Part shown: positions 12,901 through 61,193 of the stretch, piece after piece
Numbering within the stretch: position 1 is the stretch's first letter
Layout: every line of letters starts with the position of its first letter
NCBI RefSeq assembly: GCF_964275005.1
Contig: NC_092688.1
Location: forward strand, 23,007,903 to 23,071,902
Length of the DNA stretch: 64,000 nt
Reading direction: 5' to 3'
Source: Diadema setosum
Taxonomy: Eukaryota > Echinodermata > Echinoidea > Diadematoida > Diadematidae
Notes under the pieces: model-generated
Told to the model about the DNA's origin: nothing
Databases searched by the model: none
What the model saw: the letters and a program-made list of their open reading frames with translations, nothing else
Position numbers and translations under genes: made by a program

Positions 12901-14423
12901 TTGGTTTTGAGCAGATTTCTTACAAGTGAAGGATGGAGTGATGGTGATTGGGTGTTATATCTCAATATTTGTATTGTTATGCAAATGAGGTGAAACTGGA
13001 ATTAATGTCAATTTATAGAGGACAAATAAGAGTAAATAGTTAACACCCAATCATCATCACTCCATCCTTCACTTGTATGAAATCTGCTCAAAACTAATAA
13101 TTTCTCAGGGGTATGAATAATTTTGTTGTTAACTGTACATGTAATAGTGACTGCTATTTTCTGACAAGTACAGCAGGACATTTTATTTGAAAATGAAACA
13201 ATTAAGTTATTTCTTCACCTGCGCCCCAGAACTGTTCATAGCTGCCCATCGTAAAACCACTTAACTGCATTTATATGTGGCCACTCTTGTGTGTGAGAGT
13301 GTATGTGTAGGTGTGATGTGTGAAAATGTGTAAATGTGTGTCTGTCTTTCTCATACACGTGTGTCATTCTTCTTCTAACTTCCTCTGCTATTAAATCTCT
13401 ATGAAAACACAGTTACTCTGTTTGAAGTAATGTACAGTGGTGCAAAATAACTGTTCCCTTTTGTGAGTTAGGCTGATGTTGCAAGAATGCTGTAGGTTCC
13501 AAAGGGTTAAGAGATGCTGCCACAAGTGGTACTCTCCAATTTCAAGCGGTCATGTAGGATCCGGTTTTGATGGCTCTGGATACAATTGAGGCTGAGTTTT
13601 CACAAATCCTTGACTGGTATCCTGTGTCCCTGGATGATTTTTTTTTTTTCATTATTATTACTACAAGTGTTATACAAAATCCCTGTGATCAATCGCCTGA
13701 GGAGGATGCTTCTGTTGTAGGATGTTGCATACATGTAGCTATGGCTGAAATCCATAGGAACAGTTTTTAAAAGGAAAACTTACATGTATATCCGCACTTA
13801 CGATGTGGTGTCTTGTCGATATGAAGAAACTACATCCTTTACATGCCCACTAGGAATGCCATTGCAGACCCGTGTTTAGGTATTTCATCTTACTCAGAAT
13901 CTCTTTCTGTACAAATCCAAACAGGACAACAGGCACACTGCCAAATAATCTTGGCATGAAAAACATGTTGTTGTGAATGTGCAATGTATTCTAATGCCAA
14001 CAGTTGGTAATAGTTTTTAAGATACTTTTACTGACTTATCAGTGCAGGCATTCAATGGCACCAGAATATCTCAGTAAGTTTTTGGTAAGGTACGCTCCCT
14101 CTCGTAATTTAAGATCAACTCAGAAAAATCTTCTCCAATGTCCTGCTATCACAACAAAGTTTTATGGTGAGCGATCTTTTGCTCATGCTGCTCCCATACT
14201 GTGGAACGCTGTTCCGTGTTATATAAAAGAAGCTCCCACAGTGTTAAAGTTTAAAACTGCTCTCAAGACATTTCTGTTCAAAAAGTATTATGAATGAGTT
14301 TGGTTTTGCATTTATGGTTCATACATCGTACACAACATTTCCTCTTTCTACTTTCATCCCTCTCCCTTAAAGCGCATAGAGACACCACGGTAGCGATATG
14401 CGCTATATAAGCATTGTGTGTTT

Positions 14424-14462
<39 letters not shown>

Positions 14463-15456
14463 TAAATACCAGAGAAACAATCTGTGGTTCTGTATATATA
14501 TATATATAAATATGTGACCCGCTACAACAAAAGGATCCTAAAGTCGCTGACGGGCGAGCTAAGCATGGCCCAGAAAAATGCTATTTTCAGGCCTTTCCTT
14601 TGATCATTTAGCTTCAAAATTTCGGCAGATGATAGAAGATACATTAGACGACAAAATTATGTAAAAACAGAAATCCGAACATTTTGACAGATTTGGTGAT
14701 CTGACTTCAAACTCGATTTTCTCGGCTCACCCGTCAGCGACTTTAGGATCCTTTTGTTGTAGCAGGTCACATATATAAGTATTGAAACAAGTTCATGTGG
14801 TTGACTGCAGGTTCATCCGTATTTATTGCAATAAATACAGATGAACCTGCAGTCAACCACGTGAACTTGTTTCGATACTTCTGTCTAAAGCTCTTCCTTT
14901 GAGGATATCAAGCACTCTTCATAGTAGGATAGAATCACCAAGTGTGTGTGTATATATATATATATGTATATGTGTATTCATTTTAGCTCAGAATGAATTG
15001 CCAGAAAAATACAAATGTAGCTTTTTAATTTAATCAAATTTGGCACACACTTTTGAGCCACCTTTGCATCCTATACAAGGTTCTTCCACAACAGAAAATT
15101 GCATTCTTTGACTCCATTGGCAAAGTTTGTTTTTTAACCTGTTGAAGACTAGTCTCGAATATTTTTGGGCTAGGGTGAATTGGAAATGCGTGATATTGGA
15201 AAATCAGTCTGTCTTCAATGGGTTAGGCTTAATATGCTCCCTTCCATTGGGTACTCTCTTTTTGCCTCTGCAGCCTGGATCCAAGAAGCGCCCTCGTGAG
15301 ACAGGAGCCGGTGCTGAGGAGGGAAGCGACCACCCTGTCGGCCCCGGTGGCGAGAGCATGCGGAAAATGTCACGGAGCGACGACAGTGGCGAGGGTGGGA
15401 GCGGCGAGATGGAGGAGCCAAGTGGAAAGACTACGGAGCTTGGAAAAATCCTCTGA
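3958..15456 (+). CDS. CHEK2: checkpoint kinase 2 (CHEK2/Chk2), 5' partial
   Basis: Serine/threonine kinase of the nuclear DNA-damage response, in which ATM activates Chk2. Eleven exons join in phase and encode 425 residues plus TGA: 3958-4036, 4639-4704, 5112-5202, 5837-5945, 6462-6515, 7593-7657, 8790-8889, 10214-10252, 10788-11115, 12133-12296, 15274-15456. All introns are GT-AG. In order: end of the FHA domain ([13 protein letters not shown]), the linker, the glycine loop LGRGACGQV, the lysine in VAVKII, the Chk2-like [10 protein letters not shown] block, HRDLK, DFG, and an activation segment [16 protein letters not shown] that keeps the threonines matching human T383 and T387. The tail begins KKRPRE, as in the human nuclear-localisation region, and is Gly/Ser/Glu-rich. 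The SQ/TQ cluster and first FHA exons are missing, presumably upstream. Introns 3 to 10 host many MITEs. The assignment is certain at family level. Confidence 0.97.
5240..5450. repeat. MITE in CHEK2 intron 3
   Basis: Ends CTGTAAATGTGGAAATTTTC and GAAAATATCCACTTCTACAG are inverted and imperfect. The unit is rich in TTTTCGCG words. A larger relative with the same ends is at 31384-31814. Confidence 0.65.
6894..7017. repeat. short MITE in CHEK2 intron 5
   Basis: Inverted ends CTGTAAAACCAG and CTGGTTTTACAG are flanked by TA on both sides, as in Tc1/mariner-type MITEs. The interior phrases TGAATTGGAGC and AATCTTGGCT recur in diverged copies near 10385-10560, 30225-30405 and 41890-42090. Confidence 0.65.
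8461..8675. repeat. diverged MITE in CHEK2 intron 6
   Basis: Starts CTGTATACGCCATATATTTA and matches, over most of its length, the better preserved copy at 16324-16568 (shared blocks include TTAAATTCGC and AGCATCTGACTTGC or a near variant). The right end has eroded. No coding content. Confidence 0.6.
9000..10213. other. CHEK2 intron 7, no gene seen
   Basis: Apart from T and A homopolymer runs (about 9365, 9405, 9930 and 10125) nothing structured is recognised before the CAG acceptor at 10211-10213. Confidence 0.5.
10253..10787. repeat. CHEK2 intron 8 with MITE remnant and C tract
   Basis: A decayed copy of the GAATTGGAGC/AATCTTGGCT MITE family lies at about 10385-10560. A C homopolymer lies at about 10617-10637. 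The intron ends in a pyrimidine-rich acceptor at 10785-10787. Confidence 0.45.
11186..11397. repeat. MITE in CHEK2 intron 9
   Basis: Inverted ends AAGCCTGCCTCACA and TGTGAGGCGGGCTT bound 212 bp of non-coding DNA rich in TCGC/GCGA words. Superfamily not determined. Confidence 0.65.
11522..11775. repeat. MITE with about 34-bp perfect inverted ends
   Basis: The left end starts ATATGAAGAGTTTGTTTG and continues to the phrase CGATAAGTCC. The right end is its exact complement. Perfect arms suggest a fairly recent insertion into CHEK2 intron 9. No ORF of known type inside. Confidence 0.8.
12354..12822. mobile_element. non-autonomous piggyBac-like element in CHEK2 intron 10
   Basis: The left end TTAA-CCCTAACTAGGCC and the right end GGCCTAGTAAGGG-TTTA are inverted. 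One flank keeps TTAA; the other reads TTTA, a likely later substitution. No transposase inside. Same superfamily as 2768-3514 by its ends, though a different family. Confidence 0.65.
12864..13135. mobile_element. Tc1/mariner-type MITE
   Basis: Long inverted ends start CAGTTAACAACAAAATTATT and finish with the complement, both flanked by TA (12862-12863 and 13136-13137). Pairing extends about 100 bp inward (the TGAAGGATGGAGTGATG block). 272 bp, no ORF. The CAGT start and TA duplication are typical of Tc1/mariner elements. Confidence 0.85.
14004..14460 (+). mobile_element. LINE 3' fragment (reverse transcriptase C-terminus and tail)
   Basis: The reading frame 14004-14297 encodes the C-terminal tail seen in many non-LTR retrotransposon polyproteins: [10 protein letters not shown], then [28 protein letters not shown] and a final [10 protein letters not shown] before a stop. 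The 3' end reads GCGCATAGAGAC and GCGCTATATAAGC and runs into a TA microsatellite (about 14428-14456), as in CR1/L2-like LINEs. Heavily 5'-truncated. The clade is inferred. Confidence 0.75.
14513..14772. repeat. MITE with about 44-bp inverted ends
   Basis: Ends TGTGACCCGCTACAAC and GTTGTAGCAGGTCACA; the arms continue through AAAGGATCCTAAAGTCGCTG. Flanked by TA-rich sequence, so the target duplication cannot be fixed. 260 bp, non-coding. Confidence 0.8.
14778..14880. repeat. near-perfect hairpin, arms about 50 bp
   Basis: AAGTATTGAAACAAGTTCA opens the hairpin and its complement closes it, with only a few mismatches. Together with the 44-bp-armed MITE immediately before it, this gives two adjacent foldbacks in the last CHEK2 intron. 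Confidence 0.8.
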
Positions 15457-18344
15457 TAGGACGGAGAAAAAGACTACAAATTTTGGTAGCTGATTGCACC
15501 AAATTCTTTCATCTCTGGAGTCAGTACACATCTCATGAGATTCCCCAGTGCCTCTGTCGTAGCAAGGACATCAGGCGCTGGCTTTGTCTGCTGTGGCCAC
15601 AGTGCAAGAAGGTAGCTGGTCCAGTTTAATCCTGATTCTTGTCCACATATGACCACTACACGTACGTTATTTGGAGCAAGGAGCAAGCTGTAATTGAAAA
15701 GAAAGGAAATTCCTGAGAGAGTATCTTTGCCCAAAGAAGTGCTGTGAAAGCTGTTATTTTTGCAAGGGTTTAATCTTTGTGAAAATTGCAAATCACTGTT
15801 TGGTCGCAAATTTGGACGCAACACATGCAAATATCACCACACGGTAGGGTGTTAGTACACATACAATAGCCTCGGCATCCAATCGCGAAAATGACATTTT
15901 GCGAAAATGGCTGTAACCTCCTCGTGCCCAAAAATAACAGCTTTTACCTTTAGATTAGTTGAATTGGATCAAAAGTAAAATTTCATTATTATTTCATACA
16001 GTTGGACATCCAAGGGAGCACACAAAAAGGAGCAGTCACGCTCATTGAATCTCTCTTGCTTGATAAATATGTTTGTCTTATGCACAACAGCAACACCATA
16101 ACCAAAGATACTTATATGTATTCCAGGTATTCCTGAAGTTGTTGGTGACTGCTCACTTATATGATGTGCAGGAGCCTGAGTACCCTAGAAATATTTTTTT
16201 GAGCCATTGTTTTCAAAATATTTCCTTCAAGGGAAAGTGAAGTTACTCAACACTTTGTGCAGAATGCAAACATGAATTTACACAAGCAGCTCACTGCATG
16301 TTCATGTTAGCTTTCTTGAGATACTGTATACGCCATATATTTCACGAGTTTAAATTTTCGCGAATCAAGACTTCCCGACAATTTTGCGAGTGGTTAAATT
16401 CGCGATCGCGGAGTATGTACTGAATGGAGAAATGTTAGTTTATGAATGTACGTCACATTCATATCGGTATTAGAGTCAATATTTTCTCGTGTTTTTAATT
16501 TCGCGAATAGCAGCTGACTTGCAAAATTCGCGAAAATAAAAACCTTGCGAAATATTCGGCCTATACAGTACCCTTTGAAGAAGCAAACTAGTTGACAAAG
16601 TTACATTCAAATGGTTCTAACCATCCTCTGATTTTATGCAATATTTACAGAAGTGCTGCTTGTCACCACTTTCACATAGAACAACCAGTGGAGTATTAAA
16701 CTCAACTGCCGTGTGTAACAATTGTCACTTTATTTTCTACTTCATGGGTGCATTTGTGTGTGAAGTTGGCTTTATGTGAATTGTGTATGAGACTAAAGAC
16801 TCCCTTGTGGTACATGTGTGTCACTGGCCTATTTGGGCTACCTCATCGAGAGTTATTCACAGCGATTTCATCATGCTGGCACATTGGTGTGCAGACAGGG
16901 CAACTAGAGTGCTACTAATTTGCTCTCTTTGCTCACTTTGCCCATGTGCCCACTTCTCCACTTGCCCGAGGCAAAAGAAATTCACTGTTGGGCAAGCAAA
17001 ATCTATGGGTACTAGCTGGTCAGTCAGAATGGCCCTTTGGTGAAACCATCCGTCATTATTGCAATGATAGGTTTGCTCATCTATATTCGAAGCACTTAAA
17101 TACTATCTTAGTCCAATCCAGTCACAATCCGAATGTATGGCTTACTGGCCCAAATGTGGCAAATGTTTGGGCAAGTTTGAGAAATAGTTCTGTAGTGCCG
17201 TTGACTGGCTGGGAAAATAATGAAAGTTTTGTTTCAACAGATTCAGTGCTGGAGCGTCATGCAGAGAGTTGAAAGACCTTAACACTATTGACAAGGTCTG
17301 CTAAATGTGCTGGCTGTGCATGATATATGTGGGTTTCATTCATTTTAATTGCTCCTGGTACAAGTACATTTTAAATTAAACATTTTCTCTCTCTGCCTCT
17401 TGTGTTTTCTGCCAAGCATTGTTGAGAGAGCTGAGCAAATGAGAGGTGGAGATGAATTGTGGATGTCAAAATTTATGAATAAAGGAAAAATTAATTTCAA
17501 GGAAGGATGCACATTGCCACCCAAACATATTGGACATTCAAAAGCAAAAAGATCTAGCACTGAGTACCTGTAGTGGTGAAAGTAAGGTAGTAAAAGTAGC
17601 ATAATAGGTACCAGTGTTAAATTTGCACAGCTTAGCATAAATGCTTAAGTAAATGAAATAATGGCTGCTGTAAATATTATGTTGCATGAAATGAATTACT
17701 TTCCTTCATAGAGCTGTTAAAAGATGTACTAGTTCCTGGGACTTGTCACCATTTAATTGCCACACACATTCAATGCCATTCTTGATGCACAACTTGAAGA
17801 TGTGTGATGTAAATACGATATATGTGTTTAAACAAGTGAGGCCAATTGAAAACTTCATCTGAATTTGTAAACAACATTGATGGGGTCATAGCAATATTTA
17901 TCTTGTGACTGCCCCCTCTGACAGGGCAATGAGGGCAGAAGTATTTTGTGGCCAATTTTGTGGTCAAAAGTTTCTTGATTTTGTATAGAGTGATTCATTC
18001 TTTTGACCACCGTGGTGATTTTGGGGACTTTTTTCTCTCATGTGAATGCTATCATACTGATAAGTGTTATTGTCAACAGTGTCAAGCTCAGTGGAATTAT
18101 TTTGTTGACATGAACCATGAGGACCAATGTCTTTTCAACCACTCTTGCTCAGAATGTACTCCACTGGCTACTACATGTCAATCATGTATGCTGATAAAGA
18201 TATACTGTATATTCTGTACATTGAGCAGTAATTTTCTTCTTGCAATTTCAAGGGAGTCAAACAATATTGTTGAAGTTAAAAACGGGCAAAAGTATTGCTC
18301 CCTGTAGCACAAATGTGTTGCATAGCGCATCCAAGGTGGGAAAT
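15457..18344. other. CHEK2 3' flank, no further gene seen
   Basis: Directly after the TGA lies the presumed 3' UTR; I could not fix its polyadenylation site. Short ORFs here show no recognisable family, codon bias or splice context. A MITE lies at 16324-16568. Confidence 0.5.
16324..16568. repeat. MITE of the CTGTATACGCC family
   Basis: Ends CTGTATACGCC and the loosely inverted GGCCTATACAG. TTCGCGAA words are frequent inside. Better preserved copy of the element at 8461-8675. Confidence 0.65.
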
Positions 18345-19093
18345 TGCTCTAGGGTCTTTATGCCTCTGCCCGAAGGGTGCCGGAAGCATTCTGTTTTCAG
18401 GTTGTCCGTCCGTCCGTCCATCCGTCCATACGTCTCTTGGTACGTCCGTACATCCGTCCCCATTTGTTTACGCGATAACTTGAGTAATATTCCCTGGAAT
18501 TTTACCAAACTTGGGCCAGGTATAAGGTATGATGGGGCAATTACTTGATTAGATTTTGGGTGAAATCGGCCAGAGGCCAAAGGTCAAAGGTCAAGGTCAA
18601 ATCATGAAATGTATCCGTTTATGTGATAACTCAAGACCAGATCAAGCAAATTTCACCAAACTTGGTCCAAGGATGACGTATGATGGAGCAATTAAGTAAG
18701 TAGTGTTTGAGTGAAATTGGCAAGAGGTCAAAGGTCAAGGTCAAATGCTAAAAATTTTGCTATTTCCCCCATATCTGTGCAATTCCTCAAGGTATTTTCT
18801 TGGAACTTAGTGTAGACATGCACTACTGAATGAAGATTCTCCAGAGAGAGTTTCAAGTCATGAGGTCGAAGGTCAAAGGTCAGGAAAATGTTAAAATTTC
18901 CCTTTTTTCCATATCTTGCAAATGGTTCAAGGTATCTTCATGGAACATGGACTGGCAGGGATTATCTACGGAATTAGAGGTCATGGGTCAAAGGTCAGGG
19001 GGTCAAAGGTCTAGGTCAACTCCTCAAAATTTCACTATTTACCTCATATTTTTTGCAGTTCTTGCAGGATTTTTCTTGAAACTTAATATATAG
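18345..19093 (+). repeat. AGGTCA-rich dispersed repeat, left part
   Basis: Begins with a TGCCTCTGCCCGAAG segment and a GTCCGTCCGTCC run, followed by units of about 100-150 bp that each contain AGGTCAAAGGTCA-like direct repeats, an ACTTGG or GGAACTTAG word and a CCATATCT word. Another copy in reverse orientation lies at 28245-28640. The repeat continues at 20251-20460 after a LINE insertion. Confidence 0.75.
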
Positions 19094-20250
19094 TTTGATA
19101 GTTTGAAGTTGAAGTTTATTTGAACAATTTCTCGCGACCCCTTTCGGAGTATGAGAAATTTACAATGTCTTTGTAACAGTAAAATACAACAAACATGATG
19201 TTAACATATATACATACATGTATGAACAAATATAATCATCATAAAGTACATTGAAAACACGATGCAAAGGGATGCCTGACACAAAAAGGACATCAGGGTG
19301 CCCATGTACACCCATATGTGTGTATATACTTTAGCATACGTAAAACATATACTGGTATTCATATAATTATGCATGTACACACATACAACACAATTTCCAG
19401 GTCCAGAAGACCTCGCTGTAACAAGCTACCACTGTAGTTCTGTAGTGTACCATATTTTTAAACAGTCGTGTAAAAAGAAAAGGTGATGAGTTCTAGGGTT
19501 GTAGTAATTAGGCTATAGATCTGTTACTACAGAGGCAGCTTTCAAAATTCAGCTAATCATTTGACAGCTAGAAAGAGATATCATTCCATTTTCAAAATAC
19601 ATGGATAAAGTATTTGGGCATATATACAGTATATGGTAAGTGGAAAATGAGATCATGAATTTTCAGATGAATACCAAAAGTGAGGAATTGAATAGTTAAT
19701 GTACCATTCCAAAATAGTTACAATGTAAAGACATGCCATAGAGATAGGAGAAGTACCACAACCCCTGTACAAAAATGAGCATGTTCCAATTAGACTTAGT
19801 TACCTAACTTGAGCAGGATAATTTTAACGAACTTGGCAAGATTGGACAATAATTTTACCTTTTTTGTATTGAGCATTTTTAAAGTGTTTGGACGGATTCG
19901 ATACTTAGAGGGAATATAAGCTTCCCTTTCCAAGTCAAAATATGTACATTGAAACAAATAATGAAATTCATCTCCAACTAGGTCCAAGTTGCAGAGAGAG
20001 CACAGCCTATCTGCTCTTGGAATACCTTCGTTTAACGGCCTTTAACACAAGGGAGGCGGCTATTTCCACAACGATATTTACAGAGATTCCTCCATTTTAC
20101 ATAATCAAGTCGAAACAGATAGGGCTCCAAACGCATATGGTTTTTAGATATCCTATAATTAGTACATTGACCATTTGCATCGACATCACTGTACCAATTT
20201 TGAGTATCTATGTCCTTCATTCGCAACTCCAAAGTTTTCTGGATCCATAT
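19094..20250 (-). mobile_element. 5'-truncated LINE inserted in the AGGTCA-rich repeat
   Basis: Read on the - strand, the fragment codes for the end of a LINE polyprotein: the block TQNWYSDV, then YRCGNSRLPCVKGR, then a zinc-knuckle-like CSLC-x13-H-x4-C arrangement and a hydrophobic tail, with frame changes between. The 3' end (left, near 19094) shows tail-like CAAATAAACTTCAACTTCAA. Sequence on both sides belongs to one AGGTCA-rich repeat, so the LINE is the younger insertion. Confidence 0.7.
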
Positions 20251-20460
20251 ACATGTATTACCTAATGGAGATTCTCTGGGAAACTTCCTGCCAAAAGGTC
20301 AAAGCTCAAGTGAAAGTGCTATATTTCACTTTTTACCTCCATATCTTGAAAGTGATTCAAGTATCATGAAACTTGGTACATATTTATGCATGTTCTACCT
20401 GACAGTAATTCTCTTGGAAATTTTAGGGTCAAAGGTCAAAGGCCAGGCTAATATGCTAAT
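20251..20460 (+). repeat. AGGTCA-rich dispersed repeat, right part
   Basis: Resumes with CTAATGGAGATTCTCTGGGA, matching the unit spacing of the left part, and carries AAAGGTCAAAG and GGGTCAAAGGTCAAAGG words. Confidence 0.7.
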
Positions 20461-20710
20461 ACGAGTAAAGACCATACACTATTTGTTCTATACAACACCT
20501 CAAACGTCAACAGATGTGGTCCACACAGATTCTTGAATTTAGCACAGAAATGGCAACCATTTTCCTTGAATCACTTGAATCATGAATTTAACATCGTGAG
20601 TCAGTAGAAATGGATGACGTCAACCATGCGCTATCCATTTTTGCTCAAACGAAATTGCATGGCTGACACCCACAGCGTGCCATGGAACTTAAATGTCACA
20701 TGATGGGCAA
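20461..20710. other. junction between repeat and RAG1-like relic
   Basis: A 12-bp inverted pair (TATACAACACCT at 20489-20500 and its complement at 20726-20737) brackets this segment. The right member falls at the point where RAG1 homology stops. It may be a small insertion that cut off the end of the relic, or the eroded element end. No RAG2-like sequence is seen. Confidence 0.4.
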
Positions 20711-21426
20711 TCATACATTCTTTTTAGGTGTTGTATAAAAGAGTTTGTTACTGGCTTCATTGCCCTCTCTGCTAATGGCTCCAACTGAACCAAGTCCATC
20801 CTCATTCTCAATTATTTCCTGAGGGTGCTCTGTGACCTTATGGAGGTAATATTGCCATGGGACATAATTGAAGTGAGAGATCAATTCTCTGCCCATTTCC
20901 GCAGCAACGTCCTCGAACTGGCGGAGTTCATTGGCATGTATAACACGTGTCGTATGTGCATAGTACACTGAACGAAGGAAACAAAACTTCTCCATAACAG
21001 CATCCAAACGCTTCTGCCTTTCCTCATTGGGAATAAGTGAGAAGATGATTGTGGATTCTTCTCAGAACACAACTGTCTGGAGTAGTTCCCAGGTATCACA
21101 AGCTTGGGAGCTGATCCAACATGCTTTCTTATGTGAGCATCAAATTTATGTTCAGCATGCTCCACAAGTCCTTTGATGTCTTCTGTCACCTCCCATTTTT
21201 GTGCTCCTGCAATTTTTCTCATAATGATTTTCTTGAAGAAAATGCCAAGATTAATGTCAGCATGAGTAGCATCTAGAAGTTTTGCCTCGACATCGAACTA
21301 CAACTGTATAAAGGACGCTGTTTCCCACCAAGTGAGAGACTATCCAATTTAGCTTCCGACAGCTTATCTGGATTTACTTGAATGTAATCAGCGATCGCTG
21401 AAGTCATGCGATATAGGTTCGATTAA
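20711..21426 (-). pseudogene. RAG1-like core, second Asp to third catalytic Glu
   Basis: Resumes after the piggyBac element with NPDKLSEAKLDSL, then DATHADIN (second catalytic Asp, human D708 in DALHCDIG), HKFDAHIRKH, GNYSRQL, YLHKVTEHPQEIIE (zinc histidines) and SREGNEASNKLF (third catalytic residue, human E962). Homology ends directly after NKLF, so about 80 C-terminal residues present in human RAG1 are absent. Confidence 0.93.
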
Positions 21427-22204
21427 CCACTTGACTGCTGTTGGCTTAATTCACACCCATACCCCCTGGTGCTGAGCAATTTTCGGGGAATATGACATGT
21501 ATGAGTATATTGGTTATGAATCTGTTTTTTACCTTCATTTTTCATTTTTTTCATCATAATTTTTATTTTGTGGAAGAAATTATTGAATATAATTTATAGA
21601 GGTATAAAAATACAAATTCTACTCACCCAGTCATGTCATCCTGGATGTCCTATGGAAATTATCTCCTGAAGTACGAAAATAACGCTTTCTGGGAGTGATG
21701 GGGGAAGAATGCCTGCTTTGAGTTGGACTTTCACCAATATTTATTAGTGGGACTAGATCATCACTTTCCTCATATGAGCTTTCATTTTCATCGTCAAAAT
21801 CACTCCCCAGATCTATAAATTCCTCTTCTTCACCTTCTGAAATACCCGAACGATCACTAAAATCACTTTCACTTTTGCCATCAAACGATTCCTCCATTAT
21901 TTTAGCCATCCGACGAGACCTCCGTCGTGAACTGCGGGTCGCCATCTTGAAAGTTTGTTCACTCGGTAAGCTGTGCAATACAGCTACACAGAGTTCTCAA
22001 AAAAGTCAGATTTTTTTTTGAATGGCGCCATCTATAGTTCAAAACCTCTATAACATCATCACAGTGCTAATTACAAAGTGGGGGTAGGAGGATCGTGATG
22101 CGGCAATCTTGAAAATAAAATGAGTTCACCATGTACATGTACGTGGTACGCACAGTCGTGCAATATCGCTACCACGTACATGTACGTGGTCCGCAGTCAA
22201 GTGG
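21427..22204 (-). mobile_element. piggyBac element inserted in the RAG1-like relic
   Basis: The ends CCACTTGACTGC and GCAGTCAAGTGG are inverted and flanked by TTAA on both sides (21423-21426, 22205-22208), the diagnostic piggyBac target duplication. Length is 778 bp, so most of the transposase is gone. The words ACCACGTACATGTACGTGGT (22170-22189) and CACCATGTACATGTACGTGG (22127-22146) form internal palindromes next to the right end. The insertion splits the relic's coding sequence and is therefore younger than it. Confidence 0.92.
21631..21945 (-). pseudogene. piggyBac transposase, N-terminal fragment
   Basis: The methionine at 21945 opens MATRSSRRRSRRMAKIMEES, followed by a Ser/Asp/Glu-rich stretch (residues about 25-75) and a basic segment near PRKRYF. 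An acidic N-terminus is typical of piggyBac transposases. The DDD catalytic domain and C-terminal cysteine-rich domain are absent. An in-frame ATG at 21978 is an alternative start. Confidence 0.75.
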
Positions 22205-22790
22205 TTAAATGAAAAAGAACCCAGTTTGGACTTACTACTTTCCTGAGTAGCAGTGCACAAAGTGCACAGGTACCTGGAACCACTGACAGCAAGCCCGCCT
22301 TCAGCTCGATCAAGCTACTCGTCAATCATAGAATTGAAAAATCTACAGTGGAAATGTCTCCACAGATCAGTGAACCACACTTTCATAACCTTTTCCTTGA
22401 GAAACTCCCTCTCATCCTCAAGAGGAATCTGCAACAGACTAGCTGTCAAAATATAATTCTCATCACCGATTCCTTCCAGCAATGGCCTTTTGCATCTAAC
22501 AGAGTTAGGCTTTTCATCTTCAAATACAATCACGTTGCCTCCTACTTGGCGGATAGCTTTGATGCGAAGAATAGCAAAACTCGAGCGAAACGCCTTGTCC
22601 AGGAGAAAAGTGTCGCTTTTTTCCTTGTACACCGAGACATCTCCCATCCCATCTGAACCATCTTTTATTAGGACTATGAACTCTGTATTTTCGTCATGAG
22701 GATCCATCCCCTCTTTCCTTAAACTGTCCTGAATTTGAGGATCTAATTCCTTCAGAGTTTTTGCTAAAGCACTTGGATATAAGTGAACCT
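22205..22790 (-). pseudogene. RAG1-like core, first catalytic Asp to zinc CxxC
   Basis: Opens with SALAKTLKELDPQIQDSL, aligned with human SALVSALMDMEEDILEGM, then KDGSDGMGDVS (first catalytic Asp, human D600), FEDEKPNS, and after one stop the YLCTLC motif (human C727/C730). Homology continues to the TTAA where the piggyBac element was inserted. Confidence 0.93.
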
Positions 22791-22998
22791 AACCTATTCT
22801 GCCATACGTTTTCTACTTGCTTCCACCTAGTATCTTTCTTGCACTTTAGATGATCAATTAAAAGAAAACAAAAAAACAGGACATCGGTCTTGTCTTCTAA
22901 TCTTTTACTACAAAAACAATCTATCTGAGATAAAACAGGGGCTAACCTCTTAGTCTTTACGTAATCTTTCCTTGCGTCAATTGGACGGGTTTTGGACT

Positions 22999-23326
22999 TC
23001 TAACCTGATTGAGGCACACTTTTACGACATGCTTTTTTGACAGGTGGTTCTGACTTTCTACTACAAGCTACTTCATGCTGTTTTAACTTGGCCAACTTAC
23101 ATGTATAAGAACAACCATTCGCATGATGGCTACACTGTACTTTCAAAGAAGAGATAACATCATTAAACCAACCCTGACTTTCCTGAAAATTCACCTGCTA
23201 CAGTACTACAGTAGACTTACATTTAGCACAGACACTACTATTTGAAAACCACTGGTTGTAACAATCTCTACAATAGATATGTTCACACTGTCCAGTAAAT
23301 GGGCCTTCTGTAACACAATTACAAAT
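22999..23326 (-). pseudogene. RING and adjacent zinc-finger region of the RAG1-like relic
   Basis: Cysteines and histidine run ICNC, then QCEHIYCRDC, then CAKC, the C3HC4 layout of a RING finger, although the first pair is spaced CxC instead of CxxC. After a stop, the segment FQESQGWFNDVISSLKVQC and a following C/H-rich stretch align with the RAG1 region after the RING (LNSLMVKCPAKEC in human). In RAG1 this module has ubiquitin-ligase activity; activity here is excluded by the damage. Confidence 0.85.
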
Positions 23327-23845
23327 CACTCACAATAGAATGTCTGCCAAGTGATTATGAACATATCTCTGTGGTGGGTATTTTTCAGCTGGAAAAGCTT
23401 GCTCTTCAACTTCTGGTGGTGCTGTGCTGCTTGTAGTAGGTGAATCAATAACAGAAGGTTGAGACAGATCTGATGAAAATTCTGCACTGCAGTTAGGTCT
23501 CTGACCTGAGCAGCTGTAGGTAAAGGGATGTCAGTCTTATGTCATTCTAATCCAGAACTGTCTTCTGCAGTACTCTTCTTTGGTCTACCTTTTTTTTTTG
23601 TTCTTCTTAGAACACAATTGTCAGTCTATGTCATGCGGTTTGGATGTAAGTAGTTCGACGTGATGGCTTGGGTCTTCTTTCCTTCTCAACAAATTGTGGC
23701 AGCAATTGTTACAGACTTTCCTCCCATGTATCCATCTGCATCATCGTCAATGCATATACCAACAGTCTCTTGCAGAAGACCTTTGTATGCTGGTAAGTTG
23801 AGACTCTGTTTGAGGTTGGCTTTGCCGCACACTCGTTTGCTTCAG

Positions 23846-24133
23846 AAGAGACACATGCTTTTCAGGCACACCATCTTGGGTCTGAAATTAATGAGAGCAG
23901 GCAAAAAATAAAAGGAAATGATTTTTCTCCAATCAATCATCTTATCATATCAATTAGTAAAAAATCACAGAATGCATGCAGCTGCGGCATGCAGCATTTG
24001 ATAATTTATATTCGTGAAGTTGTAGGAAAACTGATGGGAACTCCACTAGACATGGACCTGACCCTTGCGTCCAACTTTTGTCCCCCTAGATTATAATCTA
24101 TCGACAGAACCTCACACCTACATATCTTGTATA
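23846..24133. other. spacer right of the RAG1-like relic
   Basis: No gene is seen. The N-terminal part of RAG1 homology and any terminal inverted repeat should lie here but cannot be recognised. The palindromic word GCATGCAGCTGCGGCATGC is at about 23975. Confidence 0.4.
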
Positions 24134-25130
24134 CAGTGTGTTTATAAAAAAAGTAAACCCAACTTCAACGGCAAATTTTTAGAAAACTATAAAATATTTA
24201 CACATTATTTTTTCATGGTTAGATAGTCCAATAAGTCCTCTGCCCAATGATACCACGTGGGTTATGTAACTCTCATGCATGACTGAGCATGATTCAACTT
24301 AGTGAATGGGTGTGAAATCATCATTGTGGCAAGTTAGAATTGCACTTTGATGGGAAGTTCATCAATCAAATGACTTAGGAAATGTCTGATTCCGTACGAA
24401 CATACCTTAGGGATGTGTACCCTCGACATGACCGCCATTCCTTTCGATGCAAAGCTTGGAATGCCTCCTCATGTCCCTGACAGCACGCCTGATCATTCCT
24501 TGATCTTGTCGTAATCGGTTCACTTCATCTGTTATCCGTTGCCTCAGCTCCTGAATCGTGGCCGGTGGGGTTTGGAATACTTTTCCTTTAAGATACCCCC
24601 AAAGAAGGAAATCGCATGGTGTCAGATCTGGTGAACGTGCAGGCCAGCATACTTTCTCACATTGTACCAGATGGCTCTTTTTGTTGGAGGCTGCCTGTCG
24701 GGGAACTGCACCCGAAAAGCCTCTTGAACTTCCATGAAACTTCTTGTTTCCTGGTATCGAGTTACCAGGAATACTCTCTGCTCAATTGTCAACTGTACCA
24801 TGTTTGGAAAGCATGTGAAGTGTGCCTGTGTCAGGAACAACCTTTGCTGAAGTTGTTATGTAATCATAGGCCTAACATGTGACAAAAATTTAACTTCAAA
24901 TATGCCCTGAATGCATGACAATAGCAAGAAATAACTTGCCACAGTGATGATTTCACACCCATTCACTAAGTTGAATCATGCTCAGTCATGCATGAGAGTT
25001 ACATAACCTACGTGGTATCATTGGATAGAGGACTTATTGGACTAACCATAATGTGCAAATACAACTGTATTTTATAGTTTTCTGAAAATTTGCTGTTGAA
25101 GTTGGGTTTACTTTTTTTAGAGACACACTG
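24134..25130 (-). mobile_element. mariner-like element, internally deleted
   Basis: About 210-bp terminal inverted repeats start CAGTGTGT and are flanked by TA at both ends (24132-24133, 25131-25132), as in Tc1/mariner elements. The - strand interior keeps both ends of a transposase but not its middle: a helix-turn-helix N-terminus and a C-terminal SPDLTPCDFLLWGYL block. The element sits at the very edge of the 25131-25908 element and appears to have used the TA in that element's terminal TGTAGGG. Confidence 0.88.
24421..24840 (-). pseudogene. mariner-type transposase remnant (HTH plus C-terminus)
   Basis: The N-terminal part (24622-24840) reads MVQLTIEQRVFLVTRYQE and RVQFPDRQPPTKRAIWYNVR, the helix-turn-helix of a mariner transposase subgroup. 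Then, in another frame, SPDLTPCDFLLWGYLKGKVF is followed by TIQELRQRI and a tail (about 24421-24650). The last catalytic Asp lies in the SPDLTPCD motif. The first two acidic residues are lost with the middle of the gene. Confidence 0.8.
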
Positions 25131-25908
25131 TAGGGTAAGGGCACCAGTATTCGGTCAGGCACCGGTATTCGGTCACTTATCACTAGTCACCAGCCAGTAA
25201 GTTCAACTGTCACAACACATGCAAATCACCCTAATTCACATACTTGTACACTCATTCACAACAGGAAACTCCCTTAGCCCCCTCCAAAAATCCATCCCAA
25301 ATCCAAAATTTTACCGTCAAAAGTGCAGAATCGGCGCTACTTTCCAAAAGCGCGCGCGGATAAGGCCCAGTTTTAAGAGTACGGGTCGCCGAAAAAGCGC
25401 TAAAAATCGAGAAATACGCCGTTCTCTCGCGGGATTTTTCGCTTATCGCAAGCTTGGAGTGTAATGGTATCCTCAAAAACGCAAAAGAAAAACAAAATGT
25501 CCGTACGTGCCGATACAGTGTCCCAATGTACATGGGTTGAATGCAAGTGCCGAGGCCCCAGTATTCGGTCACCAACGGTCGCCGCAACTTCCCCGATGCA
25601 ATTTTGCACCAACAAAGTAGCGCGCGCGCGCGTTTTTCAGCTGCCTTGAACACGCATTGACTTTGAACGCGCACATCGCGTGACCGAATACTGGAGCCGA
25701 TGACCGTATACTGGGGAATTTTCAAGGTGAAATATTTCGCTATTTTGTGCAATTCTGTGAGATATTTAACGAAATGAAAGTTGAGATTAAAGAAATTTGA
25801 TATATTTCACATACATTGCTGTAGATATGATGTATGTATGTATTATTTTAGTTTGAAAAATATTGCAAAAAAGCTTAAGTGACCGAATACTGGGGATGTT
25901 ACCCTACA
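25131..25908. repeat. element with six copies of CCAGTATTCGGTCAC
   Basis: Inverted ends TAGGGTAAGGGCACC(AGTATTCGGTCA) and the complement of TAGGGTAACATCCCCAGTAT. Copies of the phrase are at 25144-25157, 25161-25176, 25557-25573 (forward) and 25680-25694, 25700-25716, 25879-25896 (reverse). The interior is GC-richer with CGCGCG words, and no ORF of known family is seen. Layout suggests a non-autonomous DNA transposon with several internal transposase sites. Confidence 0.7.
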
Positions 25909-25911
25909 TGT

Positions 25912-26865
25912 AGCTGCTTCATATTTGTCTAGCAGGCTTTTGACCAGTTGTCAATAATGGGTCTTCAAGCTCTGGATGACCCCCTGGTCCATCGGCTGCA
26001 GGTGTGACGTCGTGTGTGGAAGGAGGTATTGAAGAGTGATGGACTGCAGGCCGTTGATGTCGGGGTGAGCGGAGCAGTTGTCGATGAACAGGAGAACTCG
26101 CCTTTTCTGGGCCAAGAACTTCCTGTCCAGCTGCCTAACCCATGCTACAAATTTATCTGATATCATCCATGCCTTCTTGTTGGCGAAGTAATCTACTGGA
26201 AGAGCATGCACATTTTTCAGCGATCTTGGGATTTTCGTTTTACCAATGACAAGTGGCCTGATTTTCTCCGTCCCTGTCATGTTCGAACACAACATCACTG
26301 TGAGTCGATCTTTTGTCTGCTTCACGCCGTGGCACTCCTTCCCATAAAAAGCCAGAGTCTTATCTGGAGTCATTCGATAGAAAAGACCAGTCTCGTCAGT
26401 GTTGAAAATGTTCTCCGGTTCGTAATCTTTCATGATTACAGGCAATGTCTCGGTTCGCCGCGTATCGACAGTCTCCACATCGACTCCAGCACTCTCCCCA
26501 CATACCCGTTGTTTACAAATACCGTTTCTCTCTTTGAAACGATATAGCCAGCCAGTTGAAGCATTGAAGCCATCGTGGCCCATTCGACGGGCAAAGTTTT
26601 CCTCTTTCTCCTTCAGCAGTGGTCCACTCACAGGCAGATTTTTGGCGCGAACATCACGGAACCGACGTTTACAAGATGGATGGATTCGGGACTTGTTATC
26701 CTGTGCTTCTATGCAGGCTTTATTCCTGATAATTGTCCACAGGGTGCTAGTCGCCAGGTTTTATTCTCGAGCTGTATCAGAATTCTTTTCTCTGTTCTCT
26801 ACAGCCCGGAGAACGGCTATTTTCTTGTCAATAGATAGAGCTTGTCGCTTTCGAGTAGTGGCCAT
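25912..26865 (-). pseudogene. pogo/Tigger (CENP-B-like) transposase
   Basis: From the ATG at 26865 the frame reads MATTRKRQALSIDKK, the start of a CENP-B-type DNA-binding domain. It then meets one TAA at 26763-26761 and stays open from there to a stop near 25949. The second half of the DNA-binding region includes ASTGWLYRFKERNG. The DDE domain shows FNTDETGLFY, LLFIDNCSAH and HTTSHLQPMDQGVI, which hold the three catalytic acids. After SLKTHY a stop follows, and homology ends at about 25912 against the neighbouring element. Close to intact, so a comparatively young copy. Confidence 0.9.
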
Positions 26866-28244
26866 TTCGGAGAGGATTGCATTGAGTGAAGGAGGAAAAC
26901 ACGACGCTTGACTCCTGATTGCCAAGCTGACTAATTTTTATGCAAATCAGACTCAACCACCATTAATTTATCAGCAGGGATATTGCTGATGTTTCTCACA
27001 GATAAAAAGCGAAATATTAAAGCAAAGTCAATCCTATCTCAGAGCATTTTAACTTCCATCTCACAAGTTGCAACGAACATTATCATGACTTTATACAATT
27101 AAAGTATTGAAAATTCAGTTAAAAAAAAACATCTGTCAACATCCCCTTAAAAAAAATGGAACACCCTAACTAGTAATTGTTTTCGTCCAATTAGAGCCTT
27201 GTTTCTAGGGAAAGCGTCAACGACAGAAACCAATCAGAATAGACTTTTACCCAATCCAATTTGCTTCATCGTGCTGTGGTTCTCCAACTCTCTAATCTCT
27301 TGATTGACATACAGTACATGTAGCTCCTCAGTATCTCCTTGTGTGTTCGTCCCCGCATTTGTCTTGAGCTTTAAATAGCGCACTATCACCTTAATCTCGT
27401 TTGTTTGTTTCTTAACCCGATGTTATCATCCTATAGTGTGAGAAAAGGAAACATCAAGGTGTTGTCTGGGCAATCATGAGACAGTGTTGTTTATAGACTG
27501 ATCACCGACACTACAGTACAATGTCACGTGCTGTGCACTTGTAAAGTCATTACACTCGCAGGTCTTTCTTCTAGAGAGGGTCCCATTATTTCTTTTTAAG
27601 CGTCCGTTTACTCTGCTTCTGTTCGCTAATCGGCGATTAATATTTCGTCACTACTTTGCGGCTACATAACTGTTTTTCAATGCAATTTATACAATGTAAA
27701 GACGATCCGTGGACAGCGTAAAATTGATCAACATGTGAAACTGAAAAAAAAAAAAAAGATTAGTAGGGGGCCTACGTTTTACATGCGTCGAAAACATATT
27801 TCTTTTGTGTGTTTTCTTTTTTTTTCCGAGAATACTAATCACTATCCTGTCGTTTTTCCCGTTTTTCTGTTTATCAATTATGCGCCGTACTATGTATGTA
27901 ACCCTATGGTAGTACACCATGTTCATACAGTGAACATTTAAGGATGTCTATCAATTTTTTTGATTCAACAAGAATCTGGATATAACGAGAAAAATTGGCC
28001 GGAACCAACGATCTCTCCCCTGTAGTACATGACAATGTGTGATGACACTTTCGCATAATTAGCAAAATATTAAAATAACAGGTTTGTCACAAATGTTCAC
28101 TTTCCTTGGGCCGAATGCATAAAACTAGCAGTTGCTTGTAAGCAATTGCTTCAAGCAAATTCCTTAGATAATCACTGCCAATCAGTGCATGCATATGTAC
28201 TAAGTTCCATTAAGGTACATTGTACCTTAGACCATTGGTGAGAA
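26866..28244. other. intergenic, nothing recognised
   Basis: Both strands show only short ORFs without family features. The left part may include the non-coding 5' portion of the Tigger copy, but its terminal repeat could not be identified. Confidence 0.4.
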
Positions 28245-28640
28245 ATGGAGAAAAAAAGTGAAATATCCACATTTTCACTTGATCTTTGACCTTTGACCTC
28301 ACAACCCAAAACTCTTGAGAATCTTTATTTGGTACAGTAGTTCATGTGTACACTAAGTTTCAAGAAAATACCTTCTGGCATTCCATAGATATGGGGGAAA
28401 TAGTGAAATTTTGTGCATTTGACCTTGACCTTTGACCTTGAGCATTTGTGCCCAAAAGTTGATAGGCACAACTTCGCCCACTCATATATACGTGCCAAGT
28501 TTCATTAGGATACCTCAAACAGTTTATTAGTTTTGCTGTCCACAATGTTGATTATGGACGGAAGGACGGAGGGACGGAGGGACGGACAAGCCAAGAACAT
28601 AATGCCTCGGGCGACACTTCGTGGCAGAGGCATATAAACA
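28245..28640 (-). repeat. AGGTCA-rich dispersed repeat, reverse copy
   Basis: Contains GATCTTTGACCTTTGACCTC and TGACCTTGACCTTTGACCTT, the GGACGGAGGGACGG run and the terminal ATAATGCCTCGGGCGACACT segment. It is the reverse of the layout at 18345-20460. A small terminal fragment of the same family is near 37020-37060. Confidence 0.75.
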
Positions 28641-28993
28641 TATATACATGTCAGGGCAAAAATTCTCTGATCGTGAGAATGTTTCGTGACATGTACATAT
28701 AAATTCTGAGTTAGTATACAGTTTACTATAGTACTAAGATATGAAGTATAACTCTTCAAATATTTGTAGTTTAGTCAACTCTGCACAAGTAAAAGTTGCA
28801 CAAGATTTATTTCTGACACAGTAGCAGTAAAATGCTCAGACCAAACTGTCGGGACTGTGTGCCAATTACATCATGTAAGTCAGATATTGCTTCAGTTGAA
28901 GCTTATTGTCCAGTCATACGTATAGATTTGGCTCATGTAGAATTGTTCATGCAGGGAAACCCTGTTGTATTGATGTCACTGGGACTGCCAGTA

Positions 28994-29318
28994 GGGAGCT
29001 TTAGATTTGTGACACCATCGTTAAGACTATGGTTGCGTTTACAGTTCTCCTCTCTCCCTACATAATGTCACAAAGTAGCTTTATTTTTTTGTGAAGGCGC
29101 AGCCGTTGCAAAGTAGAATATCGTCCCCATGTGTCTTTCGTCATTATGGCATCAAGTAATTGTCTTTGTCATGAATTTGAGCGGCACTAAAATTGCTAAG
29201 AACAGTTGTGAAAATGCACATGACGCAAGATCGATTTTGATAAGCAGTCTTGATCGTGTGCAGATTAGGGTCTTCTGTATTTCTCTCTTAATATTCACGT
29301 CACAAATCTAAATCTCCC
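28994..29318. repeat. TIR element, 325 bp
   Basis: Ends GGGAGCTTTAGATTTGTGAC and GTCACAAATCTAAATCTCCC, flanked by TA on each side. No ORF of known type. Confidence 0.6.
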
Positions 29319-32300
29319 TATTTTTAATTCATAACTGGTATGTCATTATTAAGGTACTATAAAAGACACCAGCTGAATACAATAGTGCAGTAGTGGAAGA
29401 CCGGGACTGCAAAATTCACCGCGTGAATTTGTTACAATGGTGTTTCCATGTAGTGCAGGATTGTAGAATTACAGGACCTCAGGCACGATGTATACATACA
29501 CTCCTTCTAATGAGACATTCTTCAGGGTTCTTTGCTAATCAGTTGTGAATTCCTGATGTCATCAGTGCCTTGTGAACATAAGGTGTGGATGAAAATGATT
29601 ATGTTTTTGTGTTAGTGTTTATGTGTGTGTGAATGTGTGTGTAGTGCATTCTTTGAAAGAATGTTGTCGTCTGGTGTTAAACTTGGGATGGAAAGATATA
29701 GCAGAGTATACACATAGGAGCAAATATCCAAGAATAATCAGAATTAGATGTGAGATATGTTGAGAGACTCACACAAATGTTCAAAATGGCAGCATTAAGA
29801 AATAGGGAAATAAGAACTTTCTAGCCTGCACTTGGCATATTTAGTATTGATTTTTTTTTTTTTTTTTTAACATGGTATTTGTGTTTTCTTGTTGTTGTTG
29901 TTTGTTTTTCCACTAGGAAAACATGGATATATTAGGTCTTTGTAGCAGACTCATTGAGATTTTCTGGAAAGCATTCGTTTTACTCGCCATTTGTAAGAGA
30001 TGACAAAAGGGGCAACTTGCTAGTTAACGACATCATTATTTCCTACTTGCAAAATGCAAATGCTGATAGTAATTCCCCCCCCCCCCCCCCAGCAATGCTG
30101 GTTTGTAAAGACAAGATTTCATCCTCTTGTGTACGAATGTAATGTAGATAGGGCACTGTATTTTTTTGTATTTATTTATTAGGTTTTTTTTAAAGGTTTG
30201 TATGGTTTAGATTTGTAGCACATCTTTGCTGTAAAACCAAGAACATTTGCAGCCTGAAACTTTCTTGAGTTGTCACTGGCGCTCAGTGCATTGTGGAGAC
30301 AAAAATCTTTTGTGTGCATTTTAATTTGGGGAATCTTGGCTTCTCGTGAAATTTGCAAGAGCTCAATATGCACACAAAAATTCCTGGCTTTCTAGTATCA
30401 GCACAAGTGTTTTGTATGCAGATTGAATTTGAGGGGTTTTTTTTTGTTTTTGTTTTTGTTTTTGTTTTTTTTCCAGTGCAAACACATGCAAGCACCAATA
30501 ATAGGAATGGTGCATAATGTGCAAACCAACCCTTGTGCTAGTGTAAATCTTTGTCTGCATGTCACAGATCCTTGAAGGTCTTGCATGTTATTTGTTTGTT
30601 TGTTTTTTTTTGAAAGGAGAGAGAGAGAAAAAAAATGTGTTATTGTCACCTGCTTGTGATATGTTTTTTTTTTTTGTCCAAGTGTTCCAGCCTGTTCTCT
30701 TTGTATAATATTTTATGAATAACTTCTCCACTTGTATGACTACCTTGTACATAATGTGTATCTATTTGCAAAAGTATTAACGACACATAACACTCCAATG
30801 ACATTTGAGTCTGCATGAATGCTGATTAAATTTTGATACCTAGATTTTTTTCAATTTATCATGAGTCTCTCAAAACAGCTGGTCATATGGATGTATAAAG
30901 TGTTGTCTTAAAAATCCTAAATTCCTTCAAAGTCTAGGTGCTTAGAGGCTCTCTTCACATTACTTTTTACTCTGATGATCTGCGTATTGTTTGAATAGAA
31001 ATGCACTAGATTTACAAAATCTGTTTCCTGCAAAGTATTATTGTGTTTTATTAATAAATAATGTTAATTGTGAAGTTCTCATATGGCTTCTGTTCAGTTG
31101 TGTGAATCATGTCTTGGAACTAATCATATGGTAGATGACAGTAGAAATTGTTCTCATTTTCTTCAAGACAGTGAGAAGTAAATGTGTCTGTCACAGCACT
31201 TTCTGATGAACATTCATGATACTGTAACCATGACATAGTTTCATAATGTACTGGCTAATTGATGGCTTTGCTGCATTTTGTAGACGGATTTGTCAGTTGT
31301 ACAGCTACTGGTGTATATTTTGCATCTGTGCTAAGCACTTTAACATTGGCATTTGTTTCATTTTGCATTTTTCCTGCAGCATACTGAAGAAGTGGAAATT
31401 TTCGCGCAAACAGATACCAGCGCGAAAATAAAGACACAAATCGTCGCTGGGGTGACAAAACCTTGTATCTCAAATTTGGGTGAAAATGATGTTTTTAGAT
31501 TAGTGGTCAGATAATCGGTTAAGTGATGTCCTGTCTGAATCCTAAGTATATTACCCCAAAATGAAGCCACGACGACATGTCAAAGGAAAGATAATCCCAT
31601 TTGGTACAGTGCTTTGGCCGCCATGTTTTTTGGCTCTCCTGAACATTTGACATTTTGTAGATACGAGGTCTTGTTGTCCCAACGACAAAATATTTTTGGA
31701 CGTTGTATGTTACACTAACGAGTGTCTTAATTCCGTGCAATTAAAAACACGTGAAATTCATCTCTCCCACACGAGCGTGAAAAATTACTTGCACGAAAAT
31801 ATCCACTTTTACAGTAGTCTTGCATAGAAGCTATTTTAGACATTTTTCATTTTTGTGGCCTCACGCAGGGGATTCCAGTTATATCAAGGTCGTCTTGTCT
31901 GATTTATTTATTGGTAATTTGATTGTTATTGTAATTGTAATATCACTATAGGACTCTCATTGTGCCTGTACACTTTGAATACACCCATGAACGTACACTG
32001 TGTGACTGTGTTCCGCCATGATAGATATACATAGTATGACGTGACGACGCGCGTTGCCAAATGTTTGAGATCTGACAAAAATTATGTCGCAGATGAAACC
32101 TGCCTTTTGTTACAATCTTATCCACTAAGCCATGGTGCTAGTCACTGGGGTTAGTCACTGCAAACATGCAGCGATAATGCAGACAAGTAAAGACTGGTTA
32201 TTCAGCAGTAGTTTGCTGGTTTGGACACGACCAAACTTATCGTTACATCCCTACAAATTCTTCATTTTTCGTTCTTCTTTGGCCAAAAATTTATCTCACA

Positions 32301-60200: not shown

Positions 60201-60661
60201 CCACATGATTTACTTCATATTTTGTTTACTAAATTGTGTTGTGAGATACACTACTTCAACATTGACAGATTTTAGATAGCAAAACATTCTGCATCTGTGT
60301 ATAATGTATACCTCTTATAAATTTTCTACATTTCAGACTACATGACAGACTTCTTCTAAAATAACCTGAAAGCTCTCCATGATGATATGAGTGCTATGGT
60401 TATAGCAACATCTGCAAGACAAAAACTGGAACTGCTGTGATATGTGTGGAGCAGCACATGGAATCGTGTTGATCTGAAAAGTGAGTTTCTGTCCTGTATG
60501 TCTCACTGTTGTTGGCAGGCTGTCCAAATTTGCAGCCAAAAGTGCACTGGATGAGCTGTTTTGTGGGACTTATGTGATATCCTTTTAATGCCTTGGCTTA
60601 CTACACATGAAAAATAAAGTTGGTCCATTGAAAAGTGTTCCCTGGGTTTGCTGTTTTCCAG
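57270..60661. other. upstream region of the GLOD5-like gene, no coding exon seen
   Basis: Mostly featureless AT-rich DNA. The exception is the GC-richer, CpG-bearing part at about 58560-59200, the best candidate for a promoter and 5' UTR exon of the gene at 60663. ORFs there (for example 58630-59016 on the - strand) have no recognisable family. Confidence 0.45.
58560..59200. promoter_or_regulatory. CpG-bearing segment, possible promoter
   Basis: Many CG dinucleotides (CAGCGCGCCGCGTCAGC, CTCCCGCGGCAGCAAGCGCG) in an otherwise CpG-poor neighbourhood. A possible splice donor AACAG-GTATTG occurs near 58767 on the + strand, about 1.9 kb before the acceptor of the GLOD5-like exon. Speculative. Confidence 0.3.
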
Positions 60662-60662
60662 A

Positions 60663-61193
60663 ATGCTAAGAAGGATAAACTCTAATGTCAGTTACATGCT
60701 GAAGAGGTGCCCATTTCTGGAAATCCACAAGTCTAAAGTTGCTCCTCGTACACCACAGTGTCCAAAGGCATTGCTTCAGAAATTTACCAGAGACATGTCC
60801 TCCACTGGAGCTATCCGTATTGACCACCTTGACCACTTGGTTTTAACGGTCAGAGATGCGGCCGCCACCGTTCGCTTCTACACCAGTGTTCTCGGCATGG
60901 AGGAGATCACATTCAAAGAGACGCGCAAGGCTCTCCGCTTTGGCAACCAAAAGATCAACCTCCACCAGGCAGGCAAGGAGTTTGAACCCAAGGCGGCATG
61001 CCCCACCCCAGGGTCGGCTGACCTCTGCTTTATATCTGACACACCTATCACAGATGTGATAGCCCGGCTAGAGGATTGTGGGGTCAGCGTAGAGGAAGGC
61101 CCTGTGATGCGAACTGGAGCTGTTGGCCCTATCAAATCTGTATACTTCAGAGACCCAGATCAAAATTTAATTGAAATCTCAAACTATGTTTAA
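60663..61193 (+). CDS. GLOD5: glyoxalase domain-containing protein 5 (VOC superfamily)
   Basis: A 176-residue protein of the vicinal-oxygen-chelate fold; the human GLOD5 substrate is not established. The ATG at 60663 follows directly on a strong acceptor (TTTTCCAG ending at 60661), so a 5' UTR intron is likely. Residues 1-33 are basic and nearly free of acids, compatible with a mitochondrial presequence. The VOC domain starts at about residue 40 ([15 protein letters not shown]) and contains [35 protein letters not shown], a PGSADLCF strand and [16 protein letters not shown] at the end. Human GLOD5 has [34 protein letters not shown] and YFRDPDRNLIEVSNY. Putative metal ligands are the His of DHLVL, the His of NLHQ and the Glu of LIEIS. 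The whole coding region is in one exon. Confidence 0.95.
   Translation: [176 protein letters not shown]

Follow-up and report, generated by a model that had tools for sequence, protein, structure and literature searches.

Positions 20739-23887 of the window (the whole 64,000-nucleotide stretch that was analysed, C4:23007903-23071902) hold, on the minus strand, one colinear, broken RAG1-like (RAG1L) gene, which is very probably a RAGL-type RAG1-like transposase pseudogene with a RING-containing N-terminal region. When the three minus-strand frames were read with stops as X, pieces at 20711-23860 aligned colinearly with residues 9-78, 191-384, 421-497 and 495-603 of BbRAG1L (6b40_A), with the stretches lying in two frames and the third frame giving no match. 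Vertebrate RAG1 chains also aligned with the pieces and ranked after BbRAG1L. Pfam RAG1 was above its cut-off for 22315-22788 and 20711-21061 and below it for two further pieces. The Diadema setosum genome (912.68 Mb, 102 contigs) was searched as well, and the closest relative found there is L002, an open-frame locus with 82% amino-acid identity to the catalytic piece of the relic and with 79.9, 83.0 and 80.7% nucleotide identity in three blastn blocks. The original prediction had placed fragments of a RAG1-like relic on this strand in RAG1 order, and their coordinates and order hold. The best matches went to RAG1L and then to vertebrate RAG1, colinearly, and not to Transib or an unrelated family with motifs out of order. 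The pieces of the relic, in gene order, are as follows.

23895-24095, minus strand: 201 bp upstream of the frame that are shared with the sister locus, up to the point where both sequences diverge
20739-23887, minus strand: RAG1L relic, coding homology to L002 in blastn blocks on L002 cds 1-1090, 1432-2006 and 2003-2684
23330-23887, minus strand: RAG1L N-terminal zinc-motif region (non-core), frame-shifted, aligned to L002 residues 1-186
23198-23329, minus strand: RING finger, first half of a ZDD-like region (Pfam zf-RING_2 5.9e-6; zf-C3HC4 1.5e-5)
23000-23197, minus strand: second zinc finger of the ZDD-like region (zf-TRAF and Sina_ZnF below cut-off; colinear with a vertebrate RAG1 chain and L002)
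22784-22996, minus strand: piece corresponding to BbRAG1L chain residues 9-78, on the NBD side of the core (domain i-E 7.3e-5)
22779-22780, minus strand: junction of a 341-nt internal deletion (cds 1091-1431) relative to L002, from the comparison with that locus
22315-22788, minus strand: pre-RNase H / RNase H piece with the D600, E662 and D708 codons (BbRAG1L 1e-36; RAG1 chains from 2.1e-17; Pfam RAG1 3.2e-19)
22209-22314, minus strand: ZnC2 piece with YLCTLC (C727/C730), where the BbRAG1L alignment continues through a stop to residue 384
20881-21297, minus strand: piece that includes DATHADIN (H795 region) and, at the R848 position, Val (BbRAG1L 421-497, i-E 1.2e-12; Pfam RAG1 0.0044, under cut-off)
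20711-21061, minus strand: ZnH2 / C-terminal piece with H937/H942 and E962 (BbRAG1L 5.2e-23; Pfam RAG1 4.3e-9)

Residue numbering was derived from alignments with RAG1 chains, the 1040-residue one of which we take to be mouse, and the names D600, E662, D708 and E962, in part those of the original prediction, are assumed here. The D600 codon lies at 22651-22653, E662 at 22459-22461, D708 at 22321-22323 and E962 at 20756-20758, and with H795 the relic keeps codons at all five positions, although not within one open frame. The zinc-ligand codons C727/C730/H937/H942 are kept too, so the earlier assignments of D600, C727/C730, H937/H942 and E962 agree with codons present at those positions. The assignment of DATHADIN to D708 was wrong and is ruled out by alignment with the RAG1 chains: DATHADIN (21250-21273) is the D792/H795 segment, and D708 is the Asp of SMIDE. 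The claim of a complete DDE set stands for the codons and fails for a protein, whose segments are split by a stop, an insertion and a frameshift. At both the E649 and the R848 positions the relic has Val, and it thus has the residues of the invertebrate RAG1L type, which carries V at E649 and a hydrophobic residue at R848 according to PMC7204232.

Judged by its sequence, the relic is a dead pseudogene. Comparison with L002 gives 6 in-frame stops over 763 codons, together with 9 indels not divisible by three. One stop is the codon just before the RING, opposite the first RING Cys of L002, and the piece at 22315-22788 terminates at an in-frame stop. The RAG1L homology stops directly after NKLF, with the 3′ end of RAG1L gone. 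Two elements lie in or beside the relic.

21427-22204: piggyBac-like insertion of 778 bp, 12-bp terminal inverted repeats CCACTTGACTGC, TTAA at 21423-21426 and 22205-22208
24134-25130: mariner-like element just past the 5′ flank of the relic, with long inverted ends, TA on both sides and a DUF4817 match inside

A TTAA duplication with inverted ends is what we take to be the piggyBac trait, and the piggyBac-like assignment of the 778-bp insertion rests on its TTAA and ends; Pfam gave no match inside it. Within it, 21631-21996 on the minus strand is an acidic 121-aa open frame, likewise with no Pfam match, that is perhaps a transposase N-terminus. The inverted arms of the mariner-like element (24132-24336/24932-25132) are 88.8% identical by self-BLAST. 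No TIR or TSD was recovered around the relic, and no RAG2L was found by it with Pfam in the three plus-strand frames or with tblastn of RAG2L exons from both lineages, which gave one chance-level match (E 0.21) at 37472. The CCGHC tail (CTT*), sought with the exact spacing C..C...GH....C, is absent from the six frames of window positions 10001-30000, and the homology of the relic ends ahead of the point where the tail would lie. Elsewhere in the window are protein kinase gene exons at 8650-15456 on the plus strand (Pkinase match at 10761-11123; presumably Chk2-like), a Pogo/Tigger-like transposase frame at 25951-26760 on the minus strand (DDE_1 2.2e-30, Tc5 HTH; the name Tigger is our assumption) and a Glyoxalase-domain gene at 60618-61193 on the plus strand (Glyoxalase 1.1e-10). 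Rfam and tRNA scans of the window gave nothing.

The sister locus of the relic and two transposons of another RAGL lineage in the same genome are located as follows.

C1:38615978-38618776, minus strand: L002, a single 933-aa open frame with a RING region
C1:38603408-38604277, plus strand: convergent RAG2L-like gene with kelch and PHD matches, about 12 kb from L002
C1:41452071-41466699, 14,629 bp: RAGL transposon with L003, TIRs and TSD CAGTT/CAGTT
C11:32600302-32615076, 14,775 bp: RAGL transposon with L004, TIRs and TSD CGCCT/CGCCT

L002 aligns with the 1040-residue RAG1 chain over 144-999 at 1.2e-89 and with BbRAG1L at 1.4e-174. The stretch C1:38603408-38618776 (L002, L032, L033) is a RAG1L and RAG2L-like pair and a candidate for domestication; its RAG2L-like gene and the RAG2L of the mobile lineage share 37% identity. 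A six-frame search of the 20 kb around L002 gave no CCGHC tail. Among 2,580 CAC-CAC end pairs (left 38598500-38603300, right 38618780-38623000), the best 15 had no matching 5-bp flanks, and the best 16-mer pair, matching at 13/16 positions without a TSD, was taken as chance in an unshuffled comparison. Because the frames of both L002 and the relic begin with TTTCAG behind a T-rich stretch, which is splice-acceptor-like, an extra exon upstream of the L002 frame is possible.

The two copies have changed unequally. When amino-acid sites were polarised by the outgroup L003 where it could be aligned, 33 were derived in the relic, 4 were derived in L002 and 42 were undecided. Differences between the two at codon positions 1, 2 and 3 were 93/775, 82/776 and 220/773 (12.0, 10.6 and 28.5%), and dN and dS were 0.108 and 0.621 by NG86 and 0.108 and 0.529 by YN00. 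From the polarised sites, the codon-position differences and the NG86 estimates, we conclude that the L002 lineage has been constrained while the relic accumulated amino-acid changes. This constraint is as compatible with a transposon lineage that was long active and has lost its other copies as it is with a domesticated gene.

The two 14.6-kb transposons, labelled L011-L014, are near-identical and lie on different chromosomes. Both have CACGTTCA ends and perfect 5-bp duplications, and both start with CACGTTCAGCTTTCG and finish with the inverse of CACGTTCAACTTACT; each has CAC-ended TIRs and a 5-bp TSD. Over 14,562 aligned sites they show 14 substitutions, and there are 16 gaps besides, the longest of 188 bp. 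Each carries a 598-aa RAG1L core frame, with the C11 protein identical to the C1 protein, and, convergent to it, a RAG2L that has kelch and PHD matches; the CCGHC tail was seen in the C1 copy. Upstream RAG1L exons probably exist in these transposons, and in the C1 transposon the stretch from the N-terminal exon to the core gave no RING (three frames, E<=0.05). Among the best candidates scored, the 150-bp left end was found at two places only, the two transposons. The copies have the anatomy of recent transposition. TIRs with one TSD have been described in a starfish (PMC4411706). Naming the RAG2L genes rests on a match of the mobile-lineage RAG2L to amphioxus RAG2L at 1.8e-19, on the kelch and PHD matches and on position. 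Pfam RAG2 over the genome gave 0/3 candidates, with both RAG2L genes unrecognised, and this null says nothing about absence since the control genomes were silent too.

With the 933-aa L002 query, we obtained at least 37 matches in at least 17 places (49 of 66 candidates scored), and at least 14 of these places carry RAG1L-core matches, the other 3 of the 17 matching only N-terminal or RING parts. C9:4816685-4827737 is a tandem array of RAG1L fragments, mostly C-terminal, with nine matches, and C4:43597248-43597559 is a 365-aa open frame matching only the RAG1L N-terminal zinc region (residues 9-103, 35%). The mitochondrial genome is contig C102 (15,708 bp), and its gene order, as read from frames and tRNAs, is that of sea urchins. 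Beyond this genome, RAG1L searches gave 6 pattern matches in viral_contigs and 17 in genome_contigs, with 0 confirmed in either.

The predicted RING finger of the relic is supported by the Pfam matches at 23198-23329, where zf-C3HC4 is above its cut-off and zf-RING_2, at 26.9 bits, is slightly under its cut-off of 27.3. The vertebrate RAG1 chain 9lqo (28-188) also aligns across it, with a weak domain E of 0.085. Taken alone, the 151-aa RING region of L002 scores TRIM56 (1.9e-5) and TRAF6 (3e-5) slightly above the RAG1 ZDD (1rmd, 7.4e-5), and its last finger ends in Cys like the TRAF6 row, whereas the RAG1 row has His. If these likenesses reflect descent, the region would have been captured independently from a TRAF/TRIM-type protein and would not be the vertebrate ZDD by descent. 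We consider such a capture quite unlikely: the region sits where that of RAG1 does, between the N-terminal zinc motifs and the core, a single alignment spans RAG1 144-999, and amphioxus and mollusc RAG1L likewise have a ZDD, as reported in PMC7204232. Since the region alone scores TRIM56 and TRAF6 above the RAG1 ZDD, it is by position that we judge the RING of the relic and L002 to probably share ancestry with the ZDD of RAG1.

A literature search for RAG1, Diadema and transposon returned no paper, within coverage that mostly excludes subscription literature. Printed echinoid TIR or ZDD reports beyond this coverage are possible. The ZDD is reported absent in echinoderm RAG1L (PMC7204232), the RING is reported missing in TransibSU (PMC4411706), and a 2023 study of four sea urchin species, Diadema not among them, describes echinoid RAGLs as being without ZDD (RING domain) and without TIRs (PMC9885083). 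Neither absence holds for the D. setosum genome.

The core of the relic is nearer RAG1L and RAG1 than Transib. A transposase of the RAG2-less Transib group would share the DDE core, which is common to both, and we give this reading of the relic virtually no chance: the relic had no Transib chain at E<=1, its third frame is unmatched, and L002 reaches 6pqn_A, which we take to be Transib, only at 0.004 (tool label DNA-mediated transposase) as against 1.4e-174 for BbRAG1L. Match ranking rules out Transib or another DDE family. Transib is also described as having no RAG1 N-terminal region, no RING and no RAG2L (PMC7204232, PMC4411706). As to whether this RAG1L groups with the invertebrate RAGL_B family or with family A, the L002 core is 46.6% identical to BbRAG1L (622 sites) versus 34.2% to the RAG1 chain (571 sites), in a set that has no family A, C or D invertebrate sequences. 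In a core tree of four sequences and 532 ungapped sites, L002 with L003 was the best grouping, and L003 with BbRAG1L was not excluded (AU 0.278). For L002 with BbRAG1L, AU gave exclusion (0.014), whereas KH (0.058) and SH (0.070) did not. This quartet does not settle whether the RING would have been lost or gained.

The gene of which the relic is left once encoded a DDE transposase that, with a RAG2L partner and as in known RAGL elements, would have cut at CAC-ended TIRs and inserted with 5-bp duplications, an insertion anatomy that is seen in D. setosum in the other RAGL lineage, the 14.6-kb copies. The relic locus has lost its RAG1L 3′ end and decayed, and no RAG2L was found there. Its closest relative found in the genome, the open RING-bearing L002 with its convergent RAG2L-like gene on contig C1, has undergone little protein change. 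Arrival of the relic by transposition, and not by segmental duplication, is probable but inferred, since the relic itself yielded no TIR, TSD or RAG2L. Segmental duplication of a RAG1L gene that had already become immobile (domesticated) would account for the lack of TIR or TSD at L002 among the best 15 of the 2,580 end pairs, for the little-changed L002 protein and for the roughly 200 bp upstream of the frame that both loci share. Against this, in the 20 kb compared and dispersed repeats aside, there is no shared homology beyond 24095 or past the 3′ end of the gene, nor is there a RAG2L trace by the relic, although truncation could mask either history, and we regard segmental duplication as rather unlikely.

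A broader reading can be offered tentatively, as a possibility that we hold to be somewhat doubtful. Diadema may retain an ancient RING-bearing RAG1L lineage lost in other studied sea urchins. The open copy with its convergent PHD-bearing RAG2L, lacking TIRs and a CCGHC tail, might be a host gene pair domesticated independently of vertebrates, with an architecture resembling that in vertebrates (a ZDD and a single long coding frame without interruption); the relic would be an earlier copy, and the second RAGL lineage would still be jumping. The RAGL-type transposon family gave rise to the vertebrate antibody-gene recombinase, and surviving RAGL elements are the material from which the beginnings of V(D)J recombination are reconstructed. 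A sea urchin whose RAGL copies are near-identical and have TIRs and TSDs may let RAGL movement be observed today in an invertebrate deuterostome, and a RING-bearing echinoid RAG1L bears on placing the loss (or gain) of the RING domain. The domestication of a transposon as a gene can be tested directly in a single genome that contains a dead copy, an open copy under constraint and a lineage that moved recently.

BbRAG1L, of amphioxus ProtoRAG (PDB 6b40), is like the relic in its catalytic and zinc residues, in V at E649 and in a hydrophobic residue at R848. Full-length amphioxus BbRAG1L has a ZDD (PMC7204232), and the relic and L002 have the RING region; the relic, unlike BbRAG1L, is broken, with no RAG2L, TIRs or CCGHC tail found at it. 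Compared by their description in PMC9885083, the type I and II RAG1L of S. purpuratus, P. lividus, L. variegatus and H. pulcherrimus are likewise from sea urchins and multicopy, with type I paired with RAG2L, but they are reported without ZDD or TIRs, whereas the D. setosum relic and L002 have the RING region and the L003/L004 lineage has TIRs with 5-bp TSDs. Transib differs from the relic in having no RING, RAG1 N-terminal region or RAG2L, and its match is near-absent. Vertebrate RAG1 shares the RING-bearing architecture and the colinear core of the relic and L002, and it differs at the 649 and 848 positions, where the relic has transposase-type residues.
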